NCBI GenBank assembly: GCA_023150615.1
Contig: JAKLKO010000010.1
Span: 1-64,000 of the forward strand
Length of the DNA stretch: 64,000 bases
DNA from: Phycisphaerae bacterium
Lineage (GTDB): Bacteria; Planctomycetota; Phycisphaerae; UBA1845; UTPLA1
Reading direction: 5' to 3'
The notes under the pieces were generated by a model. That model searched no databases. It worked only from the letters and a program-made list of their open reading frames with translations, and was not told the origin of the DNA. Below are positions 6,753 through 55,078 of the stretch, one piece after another. Position numbers and translations under genes: made by a program. The first letter of the stretch is position 1. Every line of letters starts with the position of its first letter.

Positions 6753-6958
6753 GCGAACGGGACTCCGTCGGGCGGGTCGCGAGTCTACGATGCGTGCAGG
6801 GGAGCGTCAATGCGCCGGCGGCGCGCGGATGGGATTCGCGAGCGAGCCGCGCGGCGCGTGCTTCGGAGGGAGCATCGCGCGGCGGCGCGTGGCCGGCCGT
6901 TGACACTCGCGCGGACGGCCCGGACGATAAGACGAAGGAGATTCACCTCGCCCCTGGC

Positions 6959-9900
6959 ATGAACACCGACGTCGTCGAGCCCGCGCCCCGGCTGTGTCGC
7001 GCCGAAGTCGTCGCGGAGTTGGCCCTCGCGCTGCGGGCGTCGGGGGTGGTCGACGTCTCGCTGGGCGCGTCTCGGATCGCGGAGGGGCTGCGGGGCGCGG
7101 CCGTATCGACGCGCGCGACGCAGTTTGTGCGGCCGTTGGATGGCACGTCGGCGGAGGTTCGGCTGCGCGGACTAAAGGGGGAGGCGCCCGGGGGACTGCG
7201 GTCGGGCTGGGGCGGATCGTACCTGACGGCGTGCGTGGACGTGCTTCAGCGGCTGCTGCCGGCCGAGCTGCCATCGGCGCTGTGGGGGCTGCGCGAGGGG
7301 GCGAGTGAGTGGCTTCTGGTCGCGGTTCGGACGCGGCCCTCGGCGGAGTACAACCGCTGGCACGGGACGGTGGTTCCGCGTCGGACGTGGCGGGCGCTGG
7401 TCGCGGCGCTGGGGTTCGAGTTGGTGGATGATCCGCGTTGCGCGGTGCTGGCGACGGAGGCCGAGCCTGCGGGGGATTGGGCGATCGAGCACTGGGCGCG
7501 GCTGGATCCGTTTCGCGACATGGGCGAGCCGGCGCTGTTCGTGATGCTCGCGCGTCGGCGCGAGGGCGCGGTTTCGCGCGAGGCGTTCGAGCGGACGGCG
7601 CGGCGGCTGCTCGGGGTGCGCGATCTGTCGCCGTTGCCGGCGCTGATTCACCAGGAGGCGGAGTCCATCTTCCTGCTGGGGCACATGCCCGACCTGTCGC
7701 TGCTCGCGCCTCTGTGGGCCGGCCTGTCGCGCGAGCGGTTTCGGGTGCTGTTCCGATCGGGGGCGGACCGGGTCATCTCGCCGGAGCGCCACGGGACGCT
7801 CGATGCGTGGCTCCGCGCGCGGCGGATCGTGTTCCAGTCCGTCTCGCGCGTCACGGACGCGGAGTGGAGTCACGGGCCATCGCCGCGGGCGTTCATCACG
7901 GCGTCGGAGTCGAGCGTCTCGCTGAGTCATCAGCTCAACGGTGCATTCGTGCTCGAGGCGCGCGCGCACGGCTATCACACGTTCCTGTTGCAGCACGGCA
8001 TCTGGTGCGAGGACACGCCGCTGCCGGTCGTGTTTCACTCGGAGCACGTGCTGGCCTGGTCGCCGGAGCATCGCGAGAGCTTTGCGGCCGTTGCGCCGCG
8101 GCGTCCGACGGGCGAGATTCGCCCGCGGGGTCTGGTCGAGGGCAACCGGTTCCACATCACGGGGTGCGCGAAGTTCGATCGTTACGCGGATCCGACGCCG
8201 GCGCCGGGTCCGGCGGATCTGTTCGGCGACTGGGCAGCGCGCTATGAGCGATCGGTGCTGCTGGCGACGAACCTGCACTGGCCGGCACACGTTGAGGCGG
8301 GTCCGCGGACTCGTGCGGCGCTGATCGACACAGCGCGTCGGATGCAGGAGACGCTGTTCATCATCAAGCTGCATCCGGTGGAGAACGCGGACGCGGAGAT
8401 TCTGGCGGCGATGCCGCTGAACGTCGTGCTGCTCGATGAGCCGGCGATCCTGCACGCGGGGCTGGAGACGACGCGGCTCGTGCGCGCAGTGGACGCGGTG
8501 GCGTGCACGCTGTCGACGGTGGCGCTGGAGGCGGTGCTGGCGGAGAAGCCGGTGTACGTGGTCGACACGAACAATCCGATGCGCTACGAGCACGTCGAGC
8601 CGGTGCCTCCGCCGGGGCTGGCGTCGCGGCTGTCGCGCGCGGCGATGACACCGGAGATGCGGGCGTTCCGGTCGTACTACTACGACACGGCGACGCTGGG
8701 TCTCGGGCGGAAGAACACGTGGGACGCGATCGCGGCGACGCTGGCCGGCGGTCCGCCGGCGGCGATGGACGTGGGGTTCGCGACGGCGCGGAGCTACGGC
8801 GTGCGGATGACGATGCTGCAGGCGGACATCGACGAGGCGCGGGCGTACCAGCTTCGACTGGAGCGAGAGATTGAGGCCGCGCGGCGGTATCAGGCGAATC
8901 TCGAGGCGCAGGCTCTCCGCATCGAGGAGTTGCAGCGGACGATCTCGACGTTGCAGGCACAGGCCGGGCCGGCGCCGCTACCGACGTCGAAACTGAACGA
9001 GGCGCGCGAACACGAACGAGCGCTCGACGCGAAGCTCCTCGGTTCGCGCGAGCGATTGTCGTACCTCGAACAGGAGCTGGAGAACCTGCGTCGGTGTTCG
9101 ACCGGCATGCGCGAACAGTGGACGCGGATTCCGGAGCTGGAGGCGGAACTGTCGCATGCGCGGCAACACACCGAGGCGGTGGGGCGGCATCTGGCCGCGG
9201 CGCGCGAGCAACTAACGGTCATCGAATCGGAGGCCGCGCGCGCGCAGGCGGCGGAGGCCGAGAGCCGCTTGCCGCGAGTCGACATCCTGGTCGTCGCGTA
9301 CAACTCGCAGCGGTGGCTCGATGGGTTCTTCGACGGCCTGCGGGGGTTGAGCTATGCGGGTTCGCGACTGCGGCTGATCTTCGTCGACAACGGATCGAGC
9401 GACGAGACGGTCGCCCGTGCGCGTCGCGCGTTGCGACAGATGCCGTTCGAGACGGAGCTGATCGAGACCGGCGTCAACCGCGGATTCACGGGCGGGTACG
9501 GGGAGGCGTTCGCGCACGCCCGCGGTGATTACTACTTCGTCGTGAACCTGGACACGGTGATCTCTCCGGACGCGCTGTCGCGGCTGGTGGAGATCATGGA
9601 GGCCGATCCATCGATCGGGATCGCCGAGGCGCGTCAGTCGCCGATGGAGCATCCGAAGTACTACGACGCGGTCACGCGGGAGACGAGCTGGTGCAGCGGG
9701 GCGTGCATGCTGGTGCGGTCGGCGGCGGTGCGGCAGGTTGGCGGCTTCGACGATCTGTTCTTCATGTACGCCGAGGACGTGGACCTGTCGTGGCGGATGT
9801 GGCTTCACGGCTGGCGCTGCGTGTACGTGCCGGAGGCGGTGGTTCAGCACTTCACGGAGGCGCTCGATCCGCACCGGACGCCGGCGCTCCAGACGTACTT

Positions 9901-11614
9901 CAGCATGCGCAACGGGGCGCTGATGCGCGTCATGTACGGCACGCCCGGCGAGATCGTACGGCATTACGCGGCGATGCTGCGGATCGTACTGCTCTCGCGC
10001 AATCCGCGCTGGCATCGCTGGCTGACGTTCAAGGCGATCCTGACGTCGCTGCGGAGATTTCGGCGCGCCTGGCACGGCCGGCGCGAGCGACGCGGACGCG
10101 GCCCGCATCCGTGGGTGTTCTTCAACGGCTGGCTCTATGGGCGTCACGCGCGGGACATTGCGGCGGCCTCAAACGGGGGCGAAGTCGTCGTAGACCTCAT
10201 CGAGCGCTTTCGGGCGGCTCGTAAGCACGTGGCCGGCGGTGTTCCGATCGAAGGGCACCTGCTTGCGCATCCCGGGGCGAACGTGGCCGGCGTCGCGAAG
10301 CAGGCGCTGCTGACGTACGCCGGCGGCGAGATCACGTACCACGTGGAGATTCCGGCAAATGCGTCCCTGAGCGGATCGATCGCCCCGCCGCAAGAGACAT
10401 TCTCGGGCGGCGGCACGGGCGAGTTCGAAATCCGGATCAACGGCGAGCGCTTGTGGAGCGACGCGATCGATGTGGAGCGGCCGGAGCACCGCTGCTGGCG
10501 GATGTTCGAGCACCCGGTGGAGCGCCGCTGGTGCGGACGCAAGGTCGACCTGACGTTGCGCTTCCAGAGCGTGCGCGGGCTGGCCTGGGGTCTGTGGGGC
10601 GAGCCGACGATTCGAACACGGAAGCAGCACCGCATCCCGACGACCGCCGAAGACGCTGCGTCTTGTTCCACGCAACCGGCCGTATCGATCGTGATCCCGA
10701 CGCATAATCGCGCCGCCGGCCTGCCGCGGATCATCGCGCGGCTGAAGGCGCAGGACATCGATGCCGAACGGTTCGAGGTCGTGCTGGTCGACAGCCGGTC
10801 ATCGGATCCGACGCCGGCCGTGGCGTCGCGACTGGCGGATGGCCATTCGAATCTGCGGCCGCTGCGGTGCGAGGCGCCGGGCGCGGCGGCGGCGCGAAAC
10901 ATGGGGATCGAGGCCGCGCGGGCGCCGCTCATCGTTCTGCTGGATGACGACATCCTCGTCGCGCCGGACTTCGTGCAGCAGATCCTCGCGGCGCACGAGG
11001 AGCATCCGGACCGGGTCCTGCTCGGCCGGATCCTCGCCCCATGGGAGGACGCGGTCGATCCGTTTCATCGCTTCCTGCTTCAGTCGCAGGACGTCAACGT
11101 GTACGACTTCCCCGATCCGACCGACGTCCCGGCGAACTACTTCTACACCGCGTGCGTTGCGATCCCGCGATCGGTTCTGGGGACCACGCGATTTGATGAG
11201 GGTTTCCGCGTCTACGGCGTCGAGGACATCGAGTTCGGTTTCCGGTTGCTGGTCGGTTCGACGCGGATGGTCTTTCTGCCGCACGTGCGCGTGTGGCACG
11301 AGTACTATCCGCGCTACGCGGACTATCGGCGCAAGAAGCGGAAGGCCGGGTACTCGCTCGGGTACTTCCTCCACACGCATCCGCAACTCGCGGATCGGTT
11401 CGTGTTCGAGCGGCGGATACGACACTTCTATCACGGCGTGCACATCGCCCTGCTGCTGACGCGACCGATCGCGGCGCTGCTGTACTTCTGGGAGCAAATC
11501 CGCTACGCGACCGGCCCGCTTCCGAGGCTGCTCTACCAGTGGATCTCTCACGACGTGCGGTTGTCGATGTACGGCGGGCTGCGGTCGTTCCGGCGCGGCG
11601 AGCCAGCCCCCTGA
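6959..11614 (+). CDS. Triple-domain glycosyltransferase with coiled coil, 1551 aa
   Basis: A very long surface-glycan synthase. Residues about 1-610 look like a GT-B enzyme of the CDP-glycerol/capsule transferase type (FLLQHGIWCED, FIIKLHPVENAD, then CTLSTVALEAVLAEKPVYVV). Residues about 613-760 are heptad-rich coiled coil. Residues about 770-965 are a GT2 domain (VDILVVAYNSQRW, VDNGSSDETV, MYAEDVDLSWRMW). A beta-rich region follows at about 1095-1230. A second GT2 domain occupies about 1239-1450 (VSIVIPTHNRAAGLP, LLDDDILVAP, YGVEDIEFGFRLL). The ATG at 6959 was chosen because upstream codons are Arg/Ala-rich noise; GAAGGAG lies 18 bases before it, rather far. It probably builds successive linkages of one repeating glycan exported by the nearby ABC pair. 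Acceptor and sugars are unknown. Confidence 0.8.
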   Translation: MNTDVVEPAPRLCRAEVVAELALALRASGVVDVSLGASRIAEGLRGAAVSTRATQFVRPLDGTSAEVRLRGLKGEAPGGLRSGWGGSYLTACVDVLQRLLPAELPSALWGLREGASEWLLVAVRTRPSAEYNRWHGTVVPRRTWRALVAALGFELVDDPRCAVLATEAEPAGDWAIEHWARLDPFRDMGEPALFVMLARRREGAVSREAFERTARRLLGVRDLSPLPALIHQEAESIFLLGHMPDLSLLAPLWAGLSRERFRVLFRSGADRVISPERHGTLDAWLRARRIVFQSVSRVTDAEWSHGPSPRAFITASESSVSLSHQLNGAFVLEARAHGYHTFLLQHGIWCEDTPLPVVFHSEHVLAWSPEHRESFAAVAPRRPTGEIRPRGLVEGNRFHITGCAKFDRYADPTPAPGPADLFGDWAARYERSVLLATNLHWPAHVEAGPRTRAALIDTARRMQETLFIIKLHPVENADAEILAAMPLNVVLLDEPAILHAGLETTRLVRAVDAVACTLSTVALEAVLAEKPVYVVDTNNPMRYEHVEPVPPPGLASRLSRAAMTPEMRAFRSYYYDTATLGLGRKNTWDAIAATLAGGPPAAMDVGFATARSYGVRMTMLQADIDEARAYQLRLEREIEAARRYQANLEAQALRIEELQRTISTLQAQAGPAPLPTSKLNEAREHERALDAKLLGSRERLSYLEQELENLRRCSTGMREQWTRIPELEAELSHARQHTEAVGRHLAAAREQLTVIESEAARAQAAEAESRLPRVDILVVAYNSQRWLDGFFDGLRGLSYAGSRLRLIFVDNGSSDETVARARRALRQMPFETELIETGVNRGFTGGYGEAFAHARGDYYFVVNLDTVISPDALSRLVEIMEADPSIGIAEARQSPMEHPKYYDAVTRETSWCSGACMLVRSAAVRQVGGFDDLFFMYAEDVDLSWRMWLHGWRCVYVPEAVVQHFTEALDPHRTPALQTYFSMRNGALMRVMYGTPGEIVRHYAAMLRIVLLSRNPRWHRWLTFKAILTSLRRFRRAWHGRRERRGRGPHPWVFFNGWLYGRHARDIAAASNGGEVVVDLIERFRAARKHVAGGVPIEGHLLAHPGANVAGVAKQALLTYAGGEITYHVEIPANASLSGSIAPPQETFSGGGTGEFEIRINGERLWSDAIDVERPEHRCWRMFEHPVERRWCGRKVDLTLRFQSVRGLAWGLWGEPTIRTRKQHRIPTTAEDAASCSTQPAVSIVIPTHNRAAGLPRIIARLKAQDIDAERFEVVLVDSRSSDPTPAVASRLADGHSNLRPLRCEAPGAAAARNMGIEAARAPLIVLLDDDILVAPDFVQQILAAHEEHPDRVLLGRILAPWEDAVDPFHRFLLQSQDVNVYDFPDPTDVPANYFYTACVAIPRSVLGTTRFDEGFRVYGVEDIEFGFRLLVGSTRMVFLPHVRVWHEYYPRYADYRRKKRKAGYSLGYFLHTHPQLADRFVFERRIRHFYHGVHIALLLTRPIAALLYFWEQIRYATGPLPRLLYQWISHDVRLSMYGGLRSFRRGEPAP

Positions 11615-28345: not shown

Positions 28346-31300
28346 ATGCCAGCGTCGAGTCGGCCGCCCCCAGCCCGGAGTGCTCCTGCCCCGTCGATGC
28401 CGGAGGCCGCGCCGCCTCCGGCCGGCCTGCGCTATCGCGCGCCGGCCCGGCTCATCGGCGGGCAGTTCCAGATCGAGTCGAACGCGCCGGTGGCGATCCT
28501 GGCGTCGGTTTCGCTCGTTCTGTGCATCCTGATCTTCCCGCCGGTGAACTGGTGGCTGCTCGCCTACGTGTGCCTGACGCCGTGGCTGGTATTCGTCTGC
28601 ACCAGCGACCGGCCGAAGCGGGTGTACGTTGCGAGCTACGCGCTGGGCGTGGGCTTTTTCCTCATCAACGTGCACTGGATGGCGCCGGTCACGCTCCCGG
28701 GCTATGTCGCCCTGGCCGTGTTCTTCGGCCTGAGTTTCCCGATTGCGGCGTGGCCGCTGCGCCATATGTTCCGGCGTCACGGGGCGTCGATGGCGATCGC
28801 GCTGCCGATCGTGTGGACGGCGGTCGAGTTCATTCGCTCACAGACCCTGATCGGCTTCCCGTGGTTCCTGCTGGCGCACAGCCAGTATCGCGTCATTCCG
28901 ATCATCCAGATCTCCGACCTGATCGGCGCCTACGGCGTCAGCTTCGTCATCGCGATGGTCAACGGCTGGATCACGGACCTGCTCATTCAGCCGATCCTGA
29001 TCTGGCGGCGCGAACAGCCGGAGCGTACGACGCGGCTGCCGATTGGCTCGTTCGCGGTCGTGGCGGTCGTGACGGGCACGCTTGTGTACGGCGGCATGAC
29101 GCGGCTGCCGACGACGGACGAGTCGGCAACGACGGGACCGGCGTCGGGCGAAGTCGGCGGTACGAACGGTCCGCGGATCGTGGTGCTCCAGCACGATTTC
29201 CCGATGTTCGTCGATCTGGCGCGGCTCAATCAGACGCCGCCGACGGACATCTATCACGCGTACATGGAACTGGTGAAGCAGGTCGTGCCGCTGCGCCCCG
29301 ACCTGATCGTGCTGCCCGAGACCGCCTGGCCGGGCTACATGAACAAGGAGTTTCTCGAAGCGGACGCGAGTTATCTCGAGGCGCTGCGGGCGAAGGAGTT
29401 TCCGCGGTCGACGATCGCCGACGTCACCGGCTATCGCGACTGGTGCCGGCAGACGCTGGAGACGCTCCGCGCGGCAGGTCGCGAGGCGGGTGCGACGATC
29501 GTCACCGGCGCGGCCAGCATCGAGTGGAAGCCGACGGAGATCCCGCCGCGGGTGGAGCGCTACAACTCGGCCTTCCGCATCCCGCCCGATCCGGCCGATC
29601 CGATCCTGCGCTACGACAAGGTCCACGTCGTGCTGTTCGGCGAGTTCGTGCCGTTCCGCTACGGGCGTTTTCACGCGCTGTACGAGTGGCTGAACTCGAT
29701 CACGCCGTGGGGCGCGGGCGGACTCGAATACTCGCTGACGGCCGGCGACGAGTTCGTCCCGTTCGAGTTCGCCGCCCAGTCGCTGGGCGGGAAGCGCTTC
29801 CGCGCCGGCGCGCCGATCTGCTACGAGGATACCGTGCCGTACGTCGCCCGGAGCTTCGCCGAACCGCACGGCCGGTCGGCCGATCGCGGAGAGGAAAAGA
29901 AGCGGGTCGACGTGCTGCTGAACATCAGCAACGACGGCTGGTTCATGCACTCCTCGCAACTGGAGCAGCACCTGGCATCGTCGGTCTTTCGCGCGGTCGA
30001 GCACCGCGTCAGCGTCGCCCGCGCGGTGAACACCGGCGCGAGCGCGATCATCGATCCGGACGGCACGATCCGGCGGCGCGTGACGCTCCGCCCGCAGCAG
30101 CGGGAAGCGCTGAAACAGGTCGAAGAGTCGGTGCGTCGACTGCTCGCGATCGCGGAGGCGCCGCGCAAACACACGACGCGCCAGTTGCTGCACGACGAGC
30201 TGATGATGCTGCGGAAGGCGGTGGAAAGCGCTGGTCCGGAATTTTCCGTACTCACCCGGCGCATCTCGCGCCAGATCGATCGACTCGACATGGCGCGGCC
30301 CGCAGTCGTGGGCGCTGCCGACCCGGCGGAGGATCTCCCGGAATCGCTCCGTGCCGAGATGGAAACCGTGCAGCGCTGGCGCGAGCGGCCGGATACCGCG
30401 CCGGGATTCGCGATCGATTCGGTCCATATCGATCCGCGCAGCACGATCTACACGCGCTGGGGCGACTGGTTTGCGACCGGGTGCGCGCTCGTCATGGTCG
30501 CGATGTGGCTCGATTGGTTCATGCATCGACTCCGCGACCGGGCGCGGCGTCCGGCCGGCCGGGCAACAGTCGCGGCGGCGATGCTCGGGCCGCCGTTGCT
30601 GCTGCTTTCGGGCGGCTGCTCGCAGTGGACCTATCGCGAGCCGACGCTGGCCGAAACACAGCAGCTCGAACGGCGGGCCTTCTTCGCCCTCGTGAGTGCC
30701 GCGGGCGACGAGCAGCCCCTGCACCGGATGCACGCGATCGAAGCGCTGCAACACGTTGCGCCCAGCGAAGGAATATTGCAGATCCGCGCCGGCCTGCGCG
30801 ACCCGCAGCCGGCCGTGCGGTTCGCGGCGCTGATGGCGCTCGGCACGCTTCGCGACATGGAGTCGGTCGAACCGATCCGGATGCTGGCTGAAGACCCCGA
30901 TGCCAACGTGCGCGTGGCGGCCATCTACGCGATGCACCGTCTCGGTGATTTCAGCCGGACGTCGGAGCTCGCATCGCTGCTGCTGAACAATCCGCAGGCG
31001 GGCGTACGCGCGAACGCGGCACTCGCGATCGGCATGCTGAGCGAGAAGAAGTCGATGAAGTTGCTGACCCGCGCCAAGCGCGACAAGGACGAATCGGTTC
31101 GGTTGCAGGTGCTCGAGGCGATGGTGATGCTGGGGGACGAAAAGTCCACCCGCGACCTGCTCTTCTACGGCCACAGCGGCGTCGGGCAGAAGATGGTCGA
31201 GGCGCTCATGACGCTCGGGACCGTCCGCGCCGCCATGGCGCGTGAGCTGTTCGGCTACCGATTCAACGAAGGTCCGTACGAGGAGGTCCGCCTCGCCGCG

Positions 31301-31612
31301 GCGCGCGGACTTGGGCGACTCGGCGACCCGCGCGGTTTCGAGTTCGCCGTCGAGCAACTGGCGTTTCGGTCCAGCCATCGTGACGACGACATCGACCCGC
31401 CCGAACAGCACGAGGCCCGCGTGCGCACGCTCGCGGCCGCCGCGCTGGAAGCAATCGGCGACCGACGCGCGCTGCGGCCGCTCCAGCACCTCCTGGACGA
31501 CGCGCGCCAGCCGCTGGCCGTGCGCCTCGCGGCGGCCCGCGCGATCTGCGCCATCGCGCGCGGGGACCGGGAGTCGCCCGACTTTGAACCGGCCGCCGCG
31601 GCGCGGAGTTGA
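28346..31612 (+). CDS. lnt: Apolipoprotein N-acyltransferase fused to HEAT repeats, 1088 aa
   Basis: The N-terminal ~730 residues are Lnt, which N-acylates lipoproteins in the inner membrane. They contain about six membrane helices (about 35-250) and then a nitrilase-fold domain with the Glu-Lys-Cys triad in IVLPETAWPGYM (about 323), RYDKVHVVLFGEFVPF (about 423) and GAPICYEDTVP (about 491). A last helix ends near 728. The frame continues without a stop through MLGPPLLLLSGGCSQW (746-761), which looks like a lipoprotein signal, into HEAT repeats (about 770-1085; LRDPQPAVRFAALMALGTL, LAEDPDANVRVAAIYAMHRLG). The ATG at 28346 has GGAAGGA six bases upstream. I see no internal ribosome site, so I call one fused protein. 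An alternative is that a stop between two genes was lost. Confidence 0.8.
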   Translation: MPASSRPPPARSAPAPSMPEAAPPPAGLRYRAPARLIGGQFQIESNAPVAILASVSLVLCILIFPPVNWWLLAYVCLTPWLVFVCTSDRPKRVYVASYALGVGFFLINVHWMAPVTLPGYVALAVFFGLSFPIAAWPLRHMFRRHGASMAIALPIVWTAVEFIRSQTLIGFPWFLLAHSQYRVIPIIQISDLIGAYGVSFVIAMVNGWITDLLIQPILIWRREQPERTTRLPIGSFAVVAVVTGTLVYGGMTRLPTTDESATTGPASGEVGGTNGPRIVVLQHDFPMFVDLARLNQTPPTDIYHAYMELVKQVVPLRPDLIVLPETAWPGYMNKEFLEADASYLEALRAKEFPRSTIADVTGYRDWCRQTLETLRAAGREAGATIVTGAASIEWKPTEIPPRVERYNSAFRIPPDPADPILRYDKVHVVLFGEFVPFRYGRFHALYEWLNSITPWGAGGLEYSLTAGDEFVPFEFAAQSLGGKRFRAGAPICYEDTVPYVARSFAEPHGRSADRGEEKKRVDVLLNISNDGWFMHSSQLEQHLASSVFRAVEHRVSVARAVNTGASAIIDPDGTIRRRVTLRPQQREALKQVEESVRRLLAIAEAPRKHTTRQLLHDELMMLRKAVESAGPEFSVLTRRISRQIDRLDMARPAVVGAADPAEDLPESLRAEMETVQRWRERPDTAPGFAIDSVHIDPRSTIYTRWGDWFATGCALVMVAMWLDWFMHRLRDRARRPAGRATVAAAMLGPPLLLLSGGCSQWTYREPTLAETQQLERRAFFALVSAAGDEQPLHRMHAIEALQHVAPSEGILQIRAGLRDPQPAVRFAALMALGTLRDMESVEPIRMLAEDPDANVRVAAIYAMHRLGDFSRTSELASLLLNNPQAGVRANAALAIGMLSEKKSMKLLTRAKRDKDESVRLQVLEAMVMLGDEKSTRDLLFYGHSGVGQKMVEALMTLGTVRAAMARELFGYRFNEGPYEEVRLAAARGLGRLGDPRGFEFAVEQLAFRSSHRDDDIDPPEQHEARVRTLAAAALEAIGDRRALRPLQHLLDDARQPLAVRLAAARAICAIARGDRESPDFEPAAAARS

Positions 31613-31640
31613 TCGCCGCGACTCAGCGCGAACTGCCCGC

Positions 31641-32171
31641 ATGAACTGGATCGCGTTCTGCATCACGGCCGCCGTCACGATCGTTCTCCAGACGACGCTC
31701 ATGGGGTTTCTGGAGCTGCGCTACATCCGGCCGGACCTGGTCGCGCTGGTGGCCGTGTTCTATGTACTGCACGCGCGGCGAGGCGATGCGCTGCTGGTGG
31801 GGTGGATGCTCGGATTCCTGGTCGATCTGTGCGGGCTGAGTTTCTCGGTCCGCGCGAACGTGGGCGTCGGGGCGCTGACCTACGGCGTCGCGACGCTGAT
31901 CACGCTCGGCCTGCGCGAGCTGACGTTCCGGGATCACCTGCTGAGCTTCATCGTCTTCTCGCTGCTCTGGACGTTTCTGACGCACGTTCTCATCGGCGGC
32001 GCAGTCGCGTGGTTCGCCGAGAACGGACCGCGGCTGCGCGAGGTCGTCGCCGTGGCGCTCTATACCGCGGCGTACACGGCGGCGGTCGGACCGTACGCGC
32101 TGTGGGTCCTGCGGCGCGTGCGCAACGCGCTGGGCCTCGGGCTGGTGCGGACGTATCGCGTTCGAGGCTAG
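31641..32171 (+). CDS. mreD: Rod shape-determining protein MreD
   Basis: A 176-residue polytopic inner-membrane protein of the elongasome, with about five hydrophobic segments. The start MNWIAFCITAAVTIVLQTTL, the loop RYIRPDLVALVAVFYVLHARR and GFLVDLCGLSFSVRANVGVGA are the usual MreD landmarks; the Asp after LV and the small-residue run are conserved features. The ATG at 31641 was chosen because the longer frame upstream is a shadow of the HEAT-repeat coding sequence. It lies 28 bases after lnt and 94 bases before the PBP2 gene, followed by rodA. This matches the classical mreD-mrdA-mrdB order, with mreC missing from the front. Confidence 0.82.
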   Translation: MNWIAFCITAAVTIVLQTTLMGFLELRYIRPDLVALVAVFYVLHARRGDALLVGWMLGFLVDLCGLSFSVRANVGVGALTYGVATLITLGLRELTFRDHLLSFIVFSLLWTFLTHVLIGGAVAWFAENGPRLREVVAVALYTAAYTAAVGPYALWVLRRVRNALGLGLVRTYRVRG

Positions 32172-32265: not shown

Positions 32266-34458
32266 ATGTTTGAACGGCGGCTGCGCCTACTTCTGTCTTT
32301 TTCCGTCGTCGTCGCGGCCGTGCTCGGAGCGCGCCTGTTTCAGCTCCAGGTGCTGTACGGCGCGTACTACGACCGGCTTTCCGAGGCGGCGCTCGAGCGC
32401 CCGCCCGAAACGCTGCGGCCCGTCCGTGGCCGTATCCTCGACCGCGCCGGCCGCGTCCTGGCGGGAGACGATCCGGCGCATGACGTCAGCGTTCACTACG
32501 GCGTCCTGAGCATGGACCGCGCGTATCTCGCCCGACTCGAACAGCACGCACGGCGCGAGCCGGCGCTGCGCGGGCTGTCGCGCGATGAGGCGATTCGCGT
32601 GTCGCGCGAGATCGTGCGCGACCGGATCGCGGACCTGTGGCGGCGTCTGTCGATCGCCTCCGGGTTGACGATGGGCGAGCTTCGCGAGCGCCGCGACTCG
32701 ATCTGCCGCCGGATCGAGATGCTGCGCCGCTATCTCTACAACGCGCGCGGCGACCGGGGCGCCGAGGAGTCGCCCGACGCGCTCCGTCTTGCGGAAGACG
32801 AGATGTTCCATCCCGTGCTGCGCGACGTCTCGCCCGACGTGCGGACGCGGATCGAAGTCGAGCTGGGCAGTATGCCGTTCGTCCGCGTCGAGTCCGCGGT
32901 TCGTCGCGTCGTGCAGGCCCCGCCCGAGCTGAGCCACTTCATCGGCCGCATCGGTGAATTGTACGGCGACAAGATCGAAAACGATCCGTTCCGCGATGAT
33001 CCGCGGCGGCGCTACCTGCCGGGGGAGAAGGTCGGCATCAGCGGCGTCGAGCGGCTGGGCGAGGCCAGCCTGCGCGGCGCACGCGGCACGCGTCAGCGCG
33101 ATCGCGACGGCCGCGTCCTGCTGTTCGAGGCGCCGGAGGATGGCCGGGACGTTCGCCTGACGATCGACTGCGAGCTGCAGGCCCGCATCGCGCGCGTGCT
33201 GGAAGAAGCCGTCGCCGCGAATCCGCCGTCGACCGGCGCGGCGTGTGCGATCATCGACGTGCCGACGCGCGAGGTCCTCGCGCTGGTTAGCGTGCCCTCC
33301 TACGATTGTGCCGCGACGGTCGAGCAGTTCCGGCAGTGGCGCGACGATACCCGGAATGCCCCGCTGCTCTTCCGCGCCGCGGGCGTGCCCTATCCGCCCG
33401 GATCGATCATGAAACCCGCGGCGATGCTCGCCGCGCTGTCGGGGGGCGTCGCGACCGCATCGACCGTCATCGACTGCCAGGGCCAGCTCCTGCCCGGCGT
33501 CGATGCATGGCACTGCTGGACGCACTGGCGCCAACTCCCGCCGCACGGCCCGCTGGATGCGGAGCAGGCGCTACAGCACAGTTGCAACATCTACCTTTAC
33601 ACGATCGGGCAGAAGCTTGGCGCCGCGCGGCTCACCGACTTCTACCGGCGCATCCTCTATGGCCCGGCGACCGCGCGACACGGCGCTGGCCTGCCGGAGG
33701 AGTCCTCGGGGCGCATTCCGACCGATCGCTGGATGGCGAGTCGTCGCGGATTCGGCTTTCAGGTCGGCGACGGCCGCAACTACGCGCTCGGGCAGGGCGA
33801 GATCCTCGTGACGCCGCTGCTGGCGGCCAACCTGTTCGCCACGATCGCCGACGGCGCGTACCGCGACCCGACGCTGCTTGTGAACGACCCGCGACCGCGC
33901 CCGGCGACGGCGATCGCGGGCGTTCGTTCCGCGGACTGGGCGACGGTCCGAAACGGGCTCTATCGTTGCGCGAACGAGCCCGGCGGAACGGCATTCGCCG
34001 GCGCGCACATGGACGAACTGGTGATCTGCGGCAAGACGGGCAGCGCGCAGAGCGTCGCGCGGATCGCCGCGGCGCGCTATCGCTTCCGGCTCGACGAGGG
34101 GGGCGAGAAGTCCGTCGTCGCGCCGACGGTCGAGGCAGCGCGCGAACGACTCGGACTTCCCGAGCGCGCCGTGCCGATCGAGCGCGCGATTGTGTCGCGT
34201 TGGCCGCCGCCCCTTGAAGGCAAGACCGAGCCACAGACGCACGCCTGGTTCGCCTGCTTTGCGCCGCGCGAAGACCCGCGAATCGCGCTCGCCCTGGTGA
34301 TCGAATACGGCGGCAGCGGCGGAAAGGTCGCCGCCCCCGTCGGCCGGCAGGTGCTCGAAACCCTGCTGGAGCACGCGGGAGGGATCCTGACGCGCGACGC
34401 GGCCTATGCGCCCGGACCGCAAACACCACCGCGACCGCGACTTGAGGACACCGAGTGA
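32266..34458 (+). CDS. mrdA: Penicillin-binding protein 2, elongasome transpeptidase
   Basis: It cross-links peptidoglycan during side-wall elongation and works with RodA. One membrane helix near the N-terminus (about residues 7-27) is followed by the class B dimerisation domain, opening with the family's GRILDRAGRVLAGDD. The transpeptidase domain holds SxxK in PPGSIMKPAAMLAAL (Ser active site), SxN in QHSCNIYLYTIGQKLG, and KTG in VICGKTGSAQSV. The length of 730 residues is slightly above the 630-650 of proteobacterial PBP2. The extra length includes an insert at about 120-200 and a stretch between KTG and the end. The stop overlaps the rodA GTG as GTGA. Confidence 0.9.
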   Translation: MFERRLRLLLSFSVVVAAVLGARLFQLQVLYGAYYDRLSEAALERPPETLRPVRGRILDRAGRVLAGDDPAHDVSVHYGVLSMDRAYLARLEQHARREPALRGLSRDEAIRVSREIVRDRIADLWRRLSIASGLTMGELRERRDSICRRIEMLRRYLYNARGDRGAEESPDALRLAEDEMFHPVLRDVSPDVRTRIEVELGSMPFVRVESAVRRVVQAPPELSHFIGRIGELYGDKIENDPFRDDPRRRYLPGEKVGISGVERLGEASLRGARGTRQRDRDGRVLLFEAPEDGRDVRLTIDCELQARIARVLEEAVAANPPSTGAACAIIDVPTREVLALVSVPSYDCAATVEQFRQWRDDTRNAPLLFRAAGVPYPPGSIMKPAAMLAALSGGVATASTVIDCQGQLLPGVDAWHCWTHWRQLPPHGPLDAEQALQHSCNIYLYTIGQKLGAARLTDFYRRILYGPATARHGAGLPEESSGRIPTDRWMASRRGFGFQVGDGRNYALGQGEILVTPLLAANLFATIADGAYRDPTLLVNDPRPRPATAIAGVRSADWATVRNGLYRCANEPGGTAFAGAHMDELVICGKTGSAQSVARIAAARYRFRLDEGGEKSVVAPTVEAARERLGLPERAVPIERAIVSRWPPPLEGKTEPQTHAWFACFAPREDPRIALALVIEYGGSGGKVAAPVGRQVLETLLEHAGGILTRDAAYAPGPQTPPRPRLEDTE

Positions 34459-35627
34459 ACCCCGCCATGCGCAGTCCGTTGCTGCCGTGGACCGGATGGG
34501 CCCTGCTGTTTCCGGCGCTGCTGCTGAGCCTCCTCGGCATTCTCGGCATCTACGCCGGCGAGACTGGATCGGAGACCGGTCCGGTGACGACGTTACGCCA
34601 GATCGCCTATCTCGCGGCCGCGTTGCTTGCGTTCCTGTTCGTTTACCTCGCGGACTATCAGCGGCTCGGTCGCTCGGCCTACGTGATCTACGGGATCGTG
34701 ATCGCGCTGCTCGTGCTGCTGCTCGCGGCCAAGCGTATTCCGATGTCGCCGATCATCCAGCCGCGGCGAAACGCCTACCGCTGGATTGACTTCGGCCCCG
34801 TCAGCCTGCAAGTCTCCGAGCTTGCGAAAGTCGCCTTCGTCCTCGCGCTGGCCGCCTATCTGCGGTTTCGCGAGCTGCAATCGTCGATCGTCCGGCTGGT
34901 CGGTCCGCTCGTGCTGACGGCGATCCCGACGGTGCTCGTGCTGGCCGAACCCGATCTTGGCACAGCGCTGCTCTTTCTGCCGACGGCGTTCGTGATGCTG
35001 TTCGCGGCCGGGGCGCGATGGCTGCATCTCGCGGTCATGGCGATCGCGCTGTGCGTCGCCGCGCCGGCCTTCTACTTCTCGCCGTTCATGTCCGAGTATC
35101 AGCGGTCGCGCGTACGGGTCGTCCTGCGGCAGAACCAGGACGATCCGCGCTGGCACATGTCCGCGGGATTCCAGCTTCGCCAGTCGAAGATCGCCCTCGG
35201 AAGCGGCCGTCTGCTGGGCCGCGGCCTGGACGAGTCGGACTTCTTCCGCCACAAGATGCTGCCCGAAGATCACAACGACTTCATCTTCGCCGTGCTCGCC
35301 CATCAATGGGGCTTCGCCGGCAGCCTCGCCGTCATCGCCGCGTACATCATGATGTTCGCGGCCGGGCTGACGGCCGCCAGCGTCTCGCAGGATCCGCTCG
35401 GCCGACTCGCCGCGGTCGGAGCGGTGGCGATAATCATCGTGCAGGCGGTCGTGAACATGGGCATGACGATGGGCCTCCTGCCGATCACGGGGCTGACCCT
35501 TCCGTTCGCGAGCTTCGGCGGCAGCGCGCTGATCGGGAATTACGCGTGCATCGCCTTGGCCGCGAGTGTCGCCCGGCGCCGGCCGATCTCCGTCGCGCCA
35601 CGCGCGTTCGACTCGGCGGATGAATGA
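34455..35627 (+). CDS. rodA: Peptidoglycan glycosyltransferase RodA
   Basis: A SEDS-family glycan polymerase of the elongasome. The 390-residue polytopic protein has about ten membrane helices. Landmarks are QPRRNAYRWIDFGPVSLQVSE, LAEPDLGTALLFLPTAFV, EDHNDFIFAVLAHQWGF (with the catalytic Asp region) and the C-terminal GLTLPFASFGGSALIGNY, all typical of RodA/FtsW. Its GTG overlaps the PBP2 stop (GTGA), as expected for partners made in equal amounts. GAGGA precedes it within the end of the PBP2 gene. The pairing with PBP2, rather than with FtsI, favours RodA over FtsW. Confidence 0.9.
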   Translation: MNPAMRSPLLPWTGWALLFPALLLSLLGILGIYAGETGSETGPVTTLRQIAYLAAALLAFLFVYLADYQRLGRSAYVIYGIVIALLVLLLAAKRIPMSPIIQPRRNAYRWIDFGPVSLQVSELAKVAFVLALAAYLRFRELQSSIVRLVGPLVLTAIPTVLVLAEPDLGTALLFLPTAFVMLFAAGARWLHLAVMAIALCVAAPAFYFSPFMSEYQRSRVRVVLRQNQDDPRWHMSAGFQLRQSKIALGSGRLLGRGLDESDFFRHKMLPEDHNDFIFAVLAHQWGFAGSLAVIAAYIMMFAAGLTAASVSQDPLGRLAAVGAVAIIIVQAVVNMGMTMGLLPITGLTLPFASFGGSALIGNYACIALAASVARRRPISVAPRAFDSADE

Positions 35628-45749: not shown

Positions 45750-47981
45750 TTATTGGCCATCGGCTGCCGGCCGACTGGATGACCCCGCGTCAGGATCGAC
45801 GGCCTTGGTCGTCGCCCCACCAAGAAGTGGATCGCGATACGGGCGACCCGCGCGATACAGCGCGAGCCGCGCCTCGACCGCGTCGATGAGTTCCTTCTTT
45901 CCGAGCTTCTTCGCCGCCTCGCAGACGCGCTCGCCGACCTCGACGGCCTGCGTGAAATCGCCGGTCTCGGCCGCAGCGGCCGCCAACACGTCGAGCGCGG
46001 CCGGGTTGTCGGGGCCGGACAGCTCGATCAACCGCTTCGCCGCGGTCATGGCCGCAGCGCCGTTTCGGAGTTGGGCATCGGGGCTTGTCGCCCAGAGCCA
46101 CGCGAGCATGCGGATCGCCTCAGCATCATCGCGGCGGAGCCGGACGCGATCTCGAAACTCGTCGATCGCCTCCGCGTGGCGCCCGAGCGCGACGAGGCAA
46201 TCGGCCAGCACACGGTGGATCTCGTGGTCATCGGGGCGCAGTTTCGCCGCCGCGCGGTAGGCATCAATCGCCTCGTCGCGCCGACCGGCCTGCCAAAGGG
46301 CCGAGCCCAGCTGCTGGTGCAGCTCGTACACCTGCGAACGGGCGCGGATCGCCGGTGCGAGAACGTCGATCGCCTCGGCCGCACGGTTGTATCGCAGCAG
46401 GAGCGTCGCGAGGTTGTTACGGGCCTCGACAAAGGCGTCGTCGAGCGCGATGGCCTCGCGGTACGCGGCAATCGCGGCCTCGTCTTCATTCACCCAGGCG
46501 AGCATGAAGCCGAGGTAGAAGCGAAGCCGCGCATCCTTCGGGTAGGCGGCGACGCCGTCGCGCAGGATCCCGATCGCGTCGTCCGTCCGCCCCAGTCGCA
46601 CGTACGCCGTCGACAGCGTCTGGCGGATCGACGCGTCTTGCGGCCGGCGGCGCACGGCCGTCTCAAGGTATTCGATCGCTTCGGCGGCCCGGTCCCGCTG
46701 CAGCAGTTCGTAGCCCAGGTGCGAGTTCGGCAGCCAGCCGTCCGGATTGAGCCGCACCGTGTGCGTCCAGAGCGAGAGGCGATCGTGATAGACCTGCGAT
46801 TGCCGCGACGTCATCGCGCCGCAAACGCAGAGAACGGCGGCGGCGGCGATAGCGGCGGCCCGGCGTCCGACGATTCCCCGTCGCGAGGCGATGTGATGCG
46901 ACGCCGCGACAAGTGCGGCGATCAGGCCCATGCTGGGGAGGTACTGGAAGTGGTCCGCCGCAGGCGCGTAGCGCATGTAGTAGATGTTGAAGAACCCGAG
47001 CACGGGAAAGAGCGTGCCGACGAAATAGAGCGCCGCAACCAGCGGTCCGCGTCCCCAGCGCCGTCGCCCGAACCACAGCGCCGCGATCACCGCAACCACC
47101 GAGATCGGATACGCCCAGGCGAACCAGTCGTCGGCGCGGACCGGCCACTCGCGATAGACGAAGCTGAGGTTCCTCGGCCAGACGAGCGTCGCGGCATAGA
47201 ACCAGACGATCCGCCCCGCGAGCAGCGCGCGTTCCAGCGGCGGCCGTGACCACTCCTCGCCCTCGGCCCCGACGTGCGAACGCTCCATCACGATCGTGCC
47301 CAGCCCGGCCAGCACGCCGACGACGAAGAACGGAATCAGCAGGGCAATGGTGCGGACCCAGTCGCGCCGGGACATCGAGTCCGCGCGCTTCCAGTAGACG
47401 AGCAGCACCAGCGCGCCCGGCAGCGTGCACGACGCCGTCTTGCTGAGCAGCGCCGCGACGTACGCGGCCAGCGATGCCACATACCCACGCGCGCGCCGGC
47501 CGGGCTCCGCTGCGCCATCGAGCCCGACGAAGCGCACGAACGCAAGCGCCGACAGCAGGTAGAACGCGCCCGCGAGGAGGTTCTTGCGCTCCGTAATCCA
47601 CGCGACGGACTCGACGTGAACCGGGTGCAGCGCGAACAGCGCCGCCGCGATCCACGCGCCGGGCATTCCGATCCGCCGCAGCACCCGCCAGAACAATAGC
47701 GCGTTGACGCCGTGGAGCAGGATGTTGACGACGTGGTACCCGGCCGGATTCAGCCCCCAGAGCTGGTACTCGATCCAGAACGACGTGTAGGTCAGCGGGT
47801 AGTACTGCGCGACCGCGCCCGGTTCGAACCAGATGCGCCGCAACCCCTCGAGCGTCCGCAGTGCCGCGTTGTTCTCGACGTAGTCGTCATCGTCCCAGAC
47901 AAATCCCGCCCGAAGCGCCGGCGAATACGCCGCGAACGTCGCGAGCAGCAGGATCAATCCGCCGGCCAGGCGCGCCTTCAC
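45750..47981 (-). CDS. GT-C type membrane glycosyltransferase with TPR repeats (paralogue 1), 743 aa
   Basis: An integral membrane protein resembling the TMTC/O-mannosyltransferase-like TPR proteins. Residues 1-400 hold about ten membrane helices with the first loop acidic motif FVWDDDDYVENNAALRT and the conserved HPVHVESVAWITERKNLL. Residues about 410-740 are TPR repeats (LNPDGWLPNSHLGYELLQ, AIEYLETAVRRRPQDASI, AIAAYREAIALDDAFVEA). By analogy the first part would transfer sugars from a polyprenyl carrier to exported proteins, while the TPRs bind partners; this is inference. Two relatives lie at 53390-57230. It starts 73 bases from the DUF1570 gene stop on the same strand. Confidence 0.75.
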   Translation of the reverse strand: MKARLAGGLILLLATFAAYSPALRAGFVWDDDDYVENNAALRTLEGLRRIWFEPGAVAQYYPLTYTSFWIEYQLWGLNPAGYHVVNILLHGVNALLFWRVLRRIGMPGAWIAAALFALHPVHVESVAWITERKNLLAGAFYLLSALAFVRFVGLDGAAEPGRRARGYVASLAAYVAALLSKTASCTLPGALVLLVYWKRADSMSRRDWVRTIALLIPFFVVGVLAGLGTIVMERSHVGAEGEEWSRPPLERALLAGRIVWFYAATLVWPRNLSFVYREWPVRADDWFAWAYPISVVAVIAALWFGRRRWGRGPLVAALYFVGTLFPVLGFFNIYYMRYAPAADHFQYLPSMGLIAALVAASHHIASRRGIVGRRAAAIAAAAVLCVCGAMTSRQSQVYHDRLSLWTHTVRLNPDGWLPNSHLGYELLQRDRAAEAIEYLETAVRRRPQDASIRQTLSTAYVRLGRTDDAIGILRDGVAAYPKDARLRFYLGFMLAWVNEDEAAIAAYREAIALDDAFVEARNNLATLLLRYNRAAEAIDVLAPAIRARSQVYELHQQLGSALWQAGRRDEAIDAYRAAAKLRPDDHEIHRVLADCLVALGRHAEAIDEFRDRVRLRRDDAEAIRMLAWLWATSPDAQLRNGAAAMTAAKRLIELSGPDNPAALDVLAAAAAETGDFTQAVEVGERVCEAAKKLGKKELIDAVEARLALYRAGRPYRDPLLGGATTKAVDPDAGSSSRPAADGQ

Positions 47982-53389: not shown

Positions 53390-55078
53390 GTGCCCCGATC
53401 CGACACAGCGCCGACACAAGCGGCCGGGCGGCTCGGGGACCCATCGATACGCCGCGCGGCGATCGGCGTCGCGTGTCTCACCTTCATCTGCCATGCGCCG
53501 TCGCTCTGGGGCGAGTTCCTCAGCTATGACGATGCACAACTCATCGTCGACAACGCCGCCTATCGCGGACCGATGCTCGAGTTCCTGCGCTGGGCGTTCA
53601 CCACGGTCCACTGGGGGCCGTACCAGCCGCTGAGTTGGATCACCTACGCGATCGACTTCGCGTTCTGGGGCCTGCGGCCGTTCGGCTTCCATCTGACGAA
53701 CGTCGTGCTGCATTCGATCGCGGCCGGACTGTGCTACCTCGTCGCGGTCGACTTGCTCGCGGCGGCCGGAGGCTCGGCGGCGACGGACCGGCGCGTTCGC
53801 ATCGCGGCCGGCTTCGCGGCGTTGCTGTTCGCGCTGCACCCGCTGCGCGTGGAATCCGTCGCGTGGATCACGGAGCGGCGCGACGTGCTCTCGGGCGTCT
53901 GGTTTTTTGCGACAGTCTGGTTCTACGTCGGCGCGGCGCAATCGCAATCGACGCCGCAACGACGACGCCGGTTCGCCGCATCACTCGTCTGCTACACGCT
54001 CTGTGTACTCGCAAAGGCGACGGCGATGACCCTTCCGATTGCGCTGCTCGTGCTCGACGTCTACCCGCTGCGGCGGTTTTCACGCGACAACAAGCCGGGG
54101 CCGACGCGGCTCGATGTGCTGATCGAAAAACTCCCCTTCCTCGCCGTCGCGGCCCCCATCGCATTCATGGCCCTCGCCGGGCAACGCGCCGCCGGCGCAA
54201 TCGGTTCGCTCGCCGCCGTCACGCTCCCGCAGCGCATCGCCATCGCGGCCTACGCGACCTGCTTCTACGTCGAAAAAACGTTGCTGCCCATCGGCCTCGC
54301 GCCGCTCTACGAACTGCCGGACCCACTCGTGCCAGGCGAGCCGCGCTTCATCATCGCCGCCGCGCTCGCGACGGTGGCCACCCTCGCCGCCCTCGTCGGA
54401 TTCCGCCGACGACCGGGACTGGCCGCGGCGTGGCTGTGCTATCTCATCCTGCTCGCCCCGGTCTCCGGGCTTGCCCAGGCCGGACGACAGATCGCCGCCG
54501 ATCGCTACAGCTACCTGCCGTGCATCGGTTTCGCGATCATCCTCGGCGCAGCGCTCGTCCGACTCGGCGATCGGCTCGCGACGCGACCGATCGGCCGCAT
54601 CGCACCGGGCGCGATCGCAATCGCAATCCTCGCGGCGCTGTCGGTCCGACAGATCGGTTTCTGGCGTGGATCGCTGTCGGTCTGGCAACGCGCCGTGGAC
54701 ATCGACCCGCGCTGTGCGCAGGGCCACTACAACCTCGCCATCCTGCACGACAAGGCCCGCCGCTCCGACCTCGCGGCGCCGCACGCCGTCGAGGCGGCGC
54801 GACTCTGGCCCAACTCGTCGGACGCGCTGTGGAGCGCGGGCGTAATCCTCGGCAAGCTCGGCCGCACGGAGGAGGGGCTCGACTACCTCCGACGCGCATC
54901 GGAACTGCAGTCGCCTCGCGTCGACGCCCTTGTTGAGTATGCGGCCGCGCTCATCCGCGCCGGGCGACCGGACGATGCGCGGACAATCCTCCGCCGCGCC
55001 CTCGACATTCAACCCGACCACGAGCGCGCGCGCGGATTGCTCGCGTACCTGACCGGAGCGGGCCATGGCGCGAAATAG
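53390..55078 (+). CDS. GT-C type membrane glycosyltransferase with short TPR end (paralogue 2), 562 aa
   Basis: A polytopic membrane protein related to 45750-47981 and to the next gene. The first loop has FLSYDDAQLIVDNAAYRG, then WGPYQPLSWITYAIDFAFWG and HPLRVESVAWITERRDVLSG, the same landmarks as its paralogues. About ten helices span residues 25-430. Residues about 440-560 hold two or three TPR units (AVDIDPRCAQGHYNLAIL, VDALVEYAAALIRAGRPDDA). The acidic pair in the first loop is where GT-C enzymes place their catalytic base. The start is a GTG 12 bases after etfB. Its end overlaps the next gene by 14 bases, so the two paralogues are translated as a pair. Donor and acceptor are unknown. Confidence 0.72.
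   Translation: MPRSDTAPTQAAGRLGDPSIRRAAIGVACLTFICHAPSLWGEFLSYDDAQLIVDNAAYRGPMLEFLRWAFTTVHWGPYQPLSWITYAIDFAFWGLRPFGFHLTNVVLHSIAAGLCYLVAVDLLAAAGGSAATDRRVRIAAGFAALLFALHPLRVESVAWITERRDVLSGVWFFATVWFYVGAAQSQSTPQRRRRFAASLVCYTLCVLAKATAMTLPIALLVLDVYPLRRFSRDNKPGPTRLDVLIEKLPFLAVAAPIAFMALAGQRAAGAIGSLAAVTLPQRIAIAAYATCFYVEKTLLPIGLAPLYELPDPLVPGEPRFIIAAALATVATLAALVGFRRRPGLAAAWLCYLILLAPVSGLAQAGRQIAADRYSYLPCIGFAIILGAALVRLGDRLATRPIGRIAPGAIAIAILAALSVRQIGFWRGSLSVWQRAVDIDPRCAQGHYNLAILHDKARRSDLAAPHAVEAARLWPNSSDALWSAGVILGKLGRTEEGLDYLRRASELQSPRVDALVEYAAALIRAGRPDDARTILRRALDIQPDHERARGLLAYLTGAGHGAK

Follow-up and report, generated by a model that had tools for sequence, protein, structure and literature searches.

Does a gene that runs from lnt, which encodes the enzyme acylating lipoproteins, straight into a HEAT-repeat domain make one protein or two? 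The question is raised by a plus-strand open reading frame at 28346-31612 of the window, our term for the whole 64,000-nucleotide stretch of a Phycisphaerae bacterium analysed here (contig JAKLKO010000010.1 of GCA_023150615.1). As the original prediction had stated, the frame passes from Lnt to HEAT without any stop; it is open for 1088 codons and its product has a calculated mass of 120.8 kDa, above the value of about 115 kDa given at the time. One fused gene probably yields two proteins here, and we favour, with moderate confidence, the reading that the gene encodes Lnt and a HEAT-repeat lipoprotein as one precursor, which is cut at Cys758 and goes back to a fusion by stop loss.

The fused gene and its seam

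The predicted protein consists of Lnt, a basic loop, a hydrophobic stretch ending in LLLLSGG-Cys758, and about nine HEAT helix pairs (Table 1). Residues 102-574 match TIGR00546, the Lnt equivalog of NCBI, with 216 bits (cut-off 132.9), and E325, K425, E433 and C492 are invariant in all 10 aligned Lnt rows. By motif these four correspond to E267, K335, E343 and C387 of E. coli Lnt, named as catalytic or essential in PMC8048626; the alignment to PDB reaches K425 and E433 only, within a stretch that is not significant by itself. Judged by its domains and motifs the Lnt part is a complete Lnt with its catalytic residues, and N-acylating activity is predicted for it.

An AlphaFold2 model spanning residues 29-1088 (mean predicted local distance difference test score, pLDDT, 89) shows two bodies, one with the Lnt fold and the other a HEAT rod, and has low confidence in the seam between them (residues 746-762). 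Lnt entries rank first among its PDB matches, with template modelling scores by target length that reach 0.79; designed alphaRep proteins of the HEAT type and nitrilases come next. The model places 18 helices after the seam, so that the HEAT repeats of the original prediction are present while its count of about ten units becomes about nine pairs. The end of Lnt near residue 728 and the boundary at residue 746 had been placed correctly, the last Lnt segment covering residues 709-727 and the next hydrophobic segment 740-757. An extra helical segment of about 100 residues (roughly 580-700; 30074-30466) separates the nitrilase domain from the last membrane helix, and many matches from other families end near residue 580. 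This segment is expected on the periplasmic side and could contact the HEAT part.

The basic loop of the window reads HRLRDRARRPAGR, and positions -45 to -12 relative to Cys758 hold six K/R and two D/E. A basic n-region, an h-region and a Cys after a small residue, as in lipoproteins, are all found at the seam. The signal is internal (residues 728-758) instead of N-terminal, and the whole fusion is therefore not called a lipoprotein; the separate HEAT protein of relatives carries the same signal near its N-terminus. By this composition the seam has the layout of a lipoprotein signal peptide placed inside a protein. Lnt has eight membrane helices and both termini in the cytoplasm according to PMC8048626, the cytoplasmic C-terminus being known from proteobacteria. 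The next helix should consequently run from inside to outside and the HEAT part be exported. The cytoplasmic C-terminus of Lnt, the basic loop, the hydrophobic segment and the Cys together point to a periplasmic HEAT part, which keeps one of the two locations originally proposed, periplasm or cytoplasm, and drops the latter.

All five fusions found in this work (see below) retain the basic loop, the hydrophobic segment and Gly-Cys at the seam, with 5-8 K/R and 1-2 D/E before the h-region. In their alignment nothing between the conserved Gly of the Lnt tail (WGDW region) and the start of the HEAT repeats is invariant except Gly-Cys and a single Pro, although the first row shares just 25-46% identity with the other four. 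Lipobox scores of the four fusions that were scored lie inside the range of the separate genes.

Fused and separate loci in relatives

We compared the locus with relatives, using the family, order and class groupings of the search database and calling a locus resolved if an lnt match and a HEAT match were found close together. The 129 resolved loci are a non-random sample, and fusion counts from the searches are lower bounds. In 124 of them a HEAT gene of its own comes after lnt; 77 of these pairs are in the +2 frame (54 with an ATGA/GTGA overlap), 28 in the +1 frame and 19 in the same frame. Since the two-gene arrangement prevails, neighbouring lnt and HEAT genes are likely the ancestral state; together with the position of the fusions within two-gene groups on trees, this bears out the suggestion that the HEAT part derives from a lipoprotein gene that once stood by itself. 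A lipobox-like Cys by our criterion is present in 118 of the 124 separate HEAT genes, and four of the other six still have Gly-Cys near the start. The remaining two, L256 (G348) and L280 (G175), encode beside lnt a HEAT protein without lipobox Cys that resembles an ordinary exported protein. Within the order the HEAT lipoprotein gene stands beside lnt in 102 of 109 loci examined, the other seven being dropped as an lnt or HEAT match was missing. At locus L039 (G029) no HEAT match accompanies lnt; this genome has its HEAT gene on a different contig, which shows that the pair can come apart.

At least five loci are fused: those of the window (G000), G010, G062, G207 and G406. The fusion occurs in 2 of 17 genomes of the window's family and in 3 of the 102 resolved loci of the order (109 given). 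Across the class, 397 genomes were searched with a five-row junction profile built from the five fusions; 273 match at E 1e-22 or better, and the uninterrupted spans from Lnt tail to HEAT among the matches listed are these same five. The family of G207 (39 genomes, 37 matching) gave no further uninterrupted span. In a draw of 392 genomes from the phylum, 29 of them matching at E 1e-10, no fusion outside the class was present among the matches listed, and in the seven matching genomes from outside the class the matches are confined to the HEAT part. Scanning the genome contigs of close relatives with the whole protein gave no match. An alignment scan yielded 26 named loci, three of them without HEAT match and none counted in the 129; most are titled Planctomycetota or planctomycete, eight Phycisphaerae or Phycisphaerales, one Sedimentisphaerales and one Planctomycetia, and one, without HEAT match, Omnitrophota. 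Long open-frame values suggested fusions in G018, G050, G068, G072, G768 and G770 too, which were rejected as the DNA shows a stop or different frames, these values running across stops; G070 also has a long open-frame value, yet is not among the fusions.

Could a sequencing or assembly error have removed a stop? The assembly behind the window is a draft in 70 contigs, and most resolved relatives do have two genes at the locus, as the original prediction had expected in the case of an error. The fusion that it proposed to look for in relatives is, however, found in G010, which is about 55% identical to the window and whose contig matches the public record JAATGM010000004.1, and three further fused loci lie in two other families. 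An error is thus highly improbable, and error and chance alike are excluded as far as sequence allows.

To count origins we used two trees, both from quick searches with SH-aLRT support only and with rows below 400 amino acids dropped. The first, with 105 Lnt proteins, requires three changes to account for the fused state. A second tree of 67 rows from selected families, which contains all five fusions but not L256 and in which L280 (G175) is marked as long-branched, again gives three changes, and its well-supported branches force at least three. The five loci form three separate branches within groups of two-gene genomes. The window forms a sister pair with G010 (support 99), at a distance of about 0.62 changes per site, and G207 forms one with G406 (support 99), at about 0.72; by these distances two of the three predicted fusions have persisted across genera. 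State changes on the trees may also be losses, and the three changes are most simply three separate fusions. The structure alignment covered 41 of the 45 listed stretches plus the window.

How the boundary was lost can be followed in G062 by comparison with its two-gene family member G068. With both set on the KGG motif (AAAGGAGG versus AAGGGCGG), at the price of a length difference of one codon before the Cys, the stop TAG stands against CGG and the start GTG against GTC; with no gap allowed, the stop faces GGG and the start faces CGC. Under either alignment, stop and start are gone in G062. In five two-gene genomes, G025, G032, G053, G068 and G072 (L033, L034, L035, L094 and L098), lnt and the HEAT gene share a frame with a single stop between them, directly or almost directly before the start (TAG-GTG, TGA-GTG, TAG-ATG, TAA-ATG). 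One substitution would therefore fuse the two genes there, and occasional readthrough of the stop could already yield some fusion.

One precursor, a tether or a second start

In the reading that we favour, the hydrophobic segment would insert with its N-terminal side in the cytoplasm and the HEAT part would be exported by Sec. Lgt would then add diacylglycerol to Cys758, and LspA would cut between Gly757 and Cys758, freeing the HEAT lipoprotein, which would be N-acylated by Lnt, possibly by the same copy it was made with. The signal peptide would stay on Lnt as a ninth membrane helix. The predicted products, in a one-to-one ratio, are an Lnt of 757 residues and 84.3 kDa and a HEAT lipoprotein of 331 residues, with 36.5 kDa of protein in addition to its lipids; the gene itself would have arisen through stop loss between neighbours. 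The genome of the window has one lnt above the cut-off, the fusion itself, and one match each for lspA and lgt, so that the enzymes needed for processing are present.

The protein might instead stay whole, the hydrophobic stretch being a plain ninth helix that holds a periplasmic HEAT rod for docking or recruiting. The single frame, the lack of a good internal start in G010 and G062, and the persistence of the fused state over about 0.62 (window/G010) and 0.72 (G207/G406) changes per site are consistent with such a tether, and the scaffold attached to the enzyme that was first proposed remains one option in this form. What separates the two readings is the Cys: Gly-Cys is kept in all five fusions, whereas nearly all other seam residues vary. 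A plain tether needs no Cys and a whole chain offers no evident reason to keep one, which favours cutting at the seam and makes the uncut protein unlikely.

Alternatively, ribosomes may also, or mainly, start internally, in which case the HEAT lipoprotein would be made alone and the fusion would extend Lnt at its C-terminus only incidentally. G207 and G406 have no stop left; they retain an ATG that has Shine-Dalgarno pairing (-5.9 and -8.3 kcal/mol) and precedes a short signal peptide, and a nested internal start is plausible in these two. In the window, initiation at ATG 30521 would yield a signal peptide of normal kind, 32 residues long and basic at its beginning, and the genes downstream of the fusion start without strong pairing. 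On the other hand, starts at usable distance outside the eighth transmembrane segment (TM8) are weak in the window (-3.8 and -2.1) and in G062 (-1.9). For comparison, 101 separate genes have a median of -7.6 for the best start ahead of the lipobox, and 2269 start-like control codons inside Lnt have -2.9. The separate start is not kept in G062, and no ATG, GTG or TTG was found 12-37 codons before the Cys of G010, where a separately started HEAT product would hence be hard to make. Overall we regard the nested-gene reading as unlikely. Shine-Dalgarno strength was rejected as proof of fused-only translation, as neighbouring genes lack pairing too.

Several observations weigh against a precursor that is cut in two. 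An ATG inside TM8 of the window pairs at -6.1, and the next two operon genes after the fusion start with 0.1 and -2.7, so that weak pairing alone does not exclude an internal start; the original statement that there is no internal ribosome site is borne out weakly, by the poor pairing of the ATGs at 30521 and 30581. In G207 and G406 the HEAT product may be separately started. The lipobox of G010 scores above only 6% of 102 separate genes, that of G207 above 10%, of G062 above 31% and of the window above 41%; SGGC (window) and NVGC (G010) are not textbook lipoboxes at -3/-2, and the window's h-region contains two prolines and is the lowest in hydrophobicity among the fusions. In the open-access literature we found no record of LspA cutting at a signal within a polytopic protein. 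Finally, five uninterrupted spans among the matches listed, with 273 genomes matching the junction profile, make the fusion rare; it is thus not favoured in general, and it could be an accident that is tolerated.

Comparison with known systems and gene neighbourhood

Ppm1 (Rv2051c/BCG_2070c) of slow-growing mycobacteria is an Lnt fusion whose parts are two genes in M. smegmatis and C. glutamicum, as described in PMC3850990. Like the window gene it is thus a natural fusion of Lnt with another protein encoded separately elsewhere, and it is the nearest fusion of Lnt itself known to us. The partner in Ppm1 is the Ppm synthase domain, which faces the cytoplasm and is not known to have a signal peptide, whereas the partner in the window is a putative lipoprotein, a substrate class of Lnt, with a predicted cutting signal at the seam. 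In mechanism the closer parallel would be FbcH, the cytochrome b/c1 precursor of Bradyrhizobium japonicum, reportedly (work of Thony-Meyer from 1991) a polytopic protein joined to an exported one through an internal signal peptide and cut in two. With two genes in relatives and one fused frame here, the window locus fits the pattern of such a polyprotein. FbcH is cut by type I signal peptidase; the window fusion would work like it with LspA as the predicted cutter, and the freed protein, unlike that from FbcH, would be lipidated.

The Lnt part shares the fold of E. coli and P. aeruginosa Lnt. E. coli Lnt ends after the eighth membrane helix; the window protein differs in the roughly 100 residues added before that helix and in the seam and HEAT part after it. 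The u-spanins of phages also combine a lipoprotein and a membrane helix in one chain, with a lipobox at the N-terminus and the helix after it; in the window this order is reversed and the signal is internal. For u-spanins, a stop-codon mutation has been proposed as one possible origin (PMC6139136). Our search of open-access literature found neither an Lnt-HEAT fusion nor a lipobox inside a polytopic enzyme. For the full proposition, an Lnt born in one chain with a substrate that it then acylates, LspA cutting inside a polytopic enzyme, a signal that becomes a ninth helix, and three origins within one class of Planctomycetota, we see the chances as about even.

Coordinates of the gene, its parts, the candidate internal starts and the downstream genes are given in Table 1. 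Of the 128 loci searched, some too short to show all neighbours, 56 have a PBP2-like gene downstream of the HEAT gene and 32 have a MoeA-like gene upstream of lnt. At E 1e-5, Pfam gives no hit to the small open reading frame (ORF) after the fusion. Opposite the fusion, the minus strand has an open frame of 954 codons (28838-31702), probably a side effect of high-GC codon use. Elsewhere in the window, a 1606-residue ORF (6794-11614) has two stretches matching family 2 glycosyltransferases (about 827-1022 and 1298-1414), and two long TPR-repeat proteins are encoded at 45750-47981 and 55065-57230, the second adjoined by an ORF with a glycosyltransferase-like domain (57235-59595).

Table 1. Features of the lnt-HEAT locus in window coordinates; pairing energies refer to Shine-Dalgarno sequences.
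Feature	Position	Strand	Evidence and remarks
lnt-HEAT fusion gene	28346..31612	+	One open frame; Shine-Dalgarno-like pairing of own start -6.1 kcal/mol
LNT_N membrane domain, residues 58-207	28517..28966	+	Pfam PF20154, E 9.8e-33
Nitrilase-like catalytic domain CN_hydrolase, residues 305-575	29258..30070	+	Pfam PF00795; E325, K425, E433, C492
Last Lnt transmembrane segment (TM8), residues 709-727	30470..30526	+	Hydropathy; AlphaFold2 helix 708-734
Candidate internal ATG, 32 codons before Cys758	30521..30523	+	Weak pairing, -3.8 kcal/mol; CTG here in G010
Basic loop, residues 728-741, predicted cytoplasmic	30527..30568	+	Sequence; would act as n-region of the internal signal
Hydrophobic h-region, residues 740-757	30563..30616	+	Hydropathy; low model confidence at 746-762, seam perhaps flexible
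Candidate internal ATG, residue 746, 12 codons before Cys758	30581..30583	+	Weak pairing, -2.1 kcal/mol; without basic n-region
Lipobox-like Cys758, predicted lipidation/cut site	30617..30619	+	Gly-Cys in 5/5 fusions; lipobox-like Cys in 118/124 separate HEAT genes
HEAT-repeat domain, helices at residues 768-1072	30647..31561	+	Pfam PF13646 (HEAT_2), PF02985 (HEAT), PF03130 (HEAT_PBS); AlphaFold2; PDB matches to HEAT/alphaRep proteins
Small ORF where mreD would be expected	31641..32171	+	Similar ORFs after the HEAT gene in 64/128 loci
Penicillin-binding protein 2 (PBP2)-like gene	32266..34458	+	Pfam PF00905, PF03717
RodA/FtsW-like gene	34455..35627	+	Pfam PF01098

From its gene neighbours, one may guess that the HEAT lipoprotein is a periplasmic scaffold near the lipoprotein or cell-shape machinery. 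The fused loci draw attention to this unnamed lipoprotein beside lnt and offer natural cases, with the boundary lost to differing degrees, for asking if LspA cuts inside a polytopic protein. The same cases bear on whether a signal peptide may be kept as a permanent membrane helix and Lnt be coupled one to one with its substrate.

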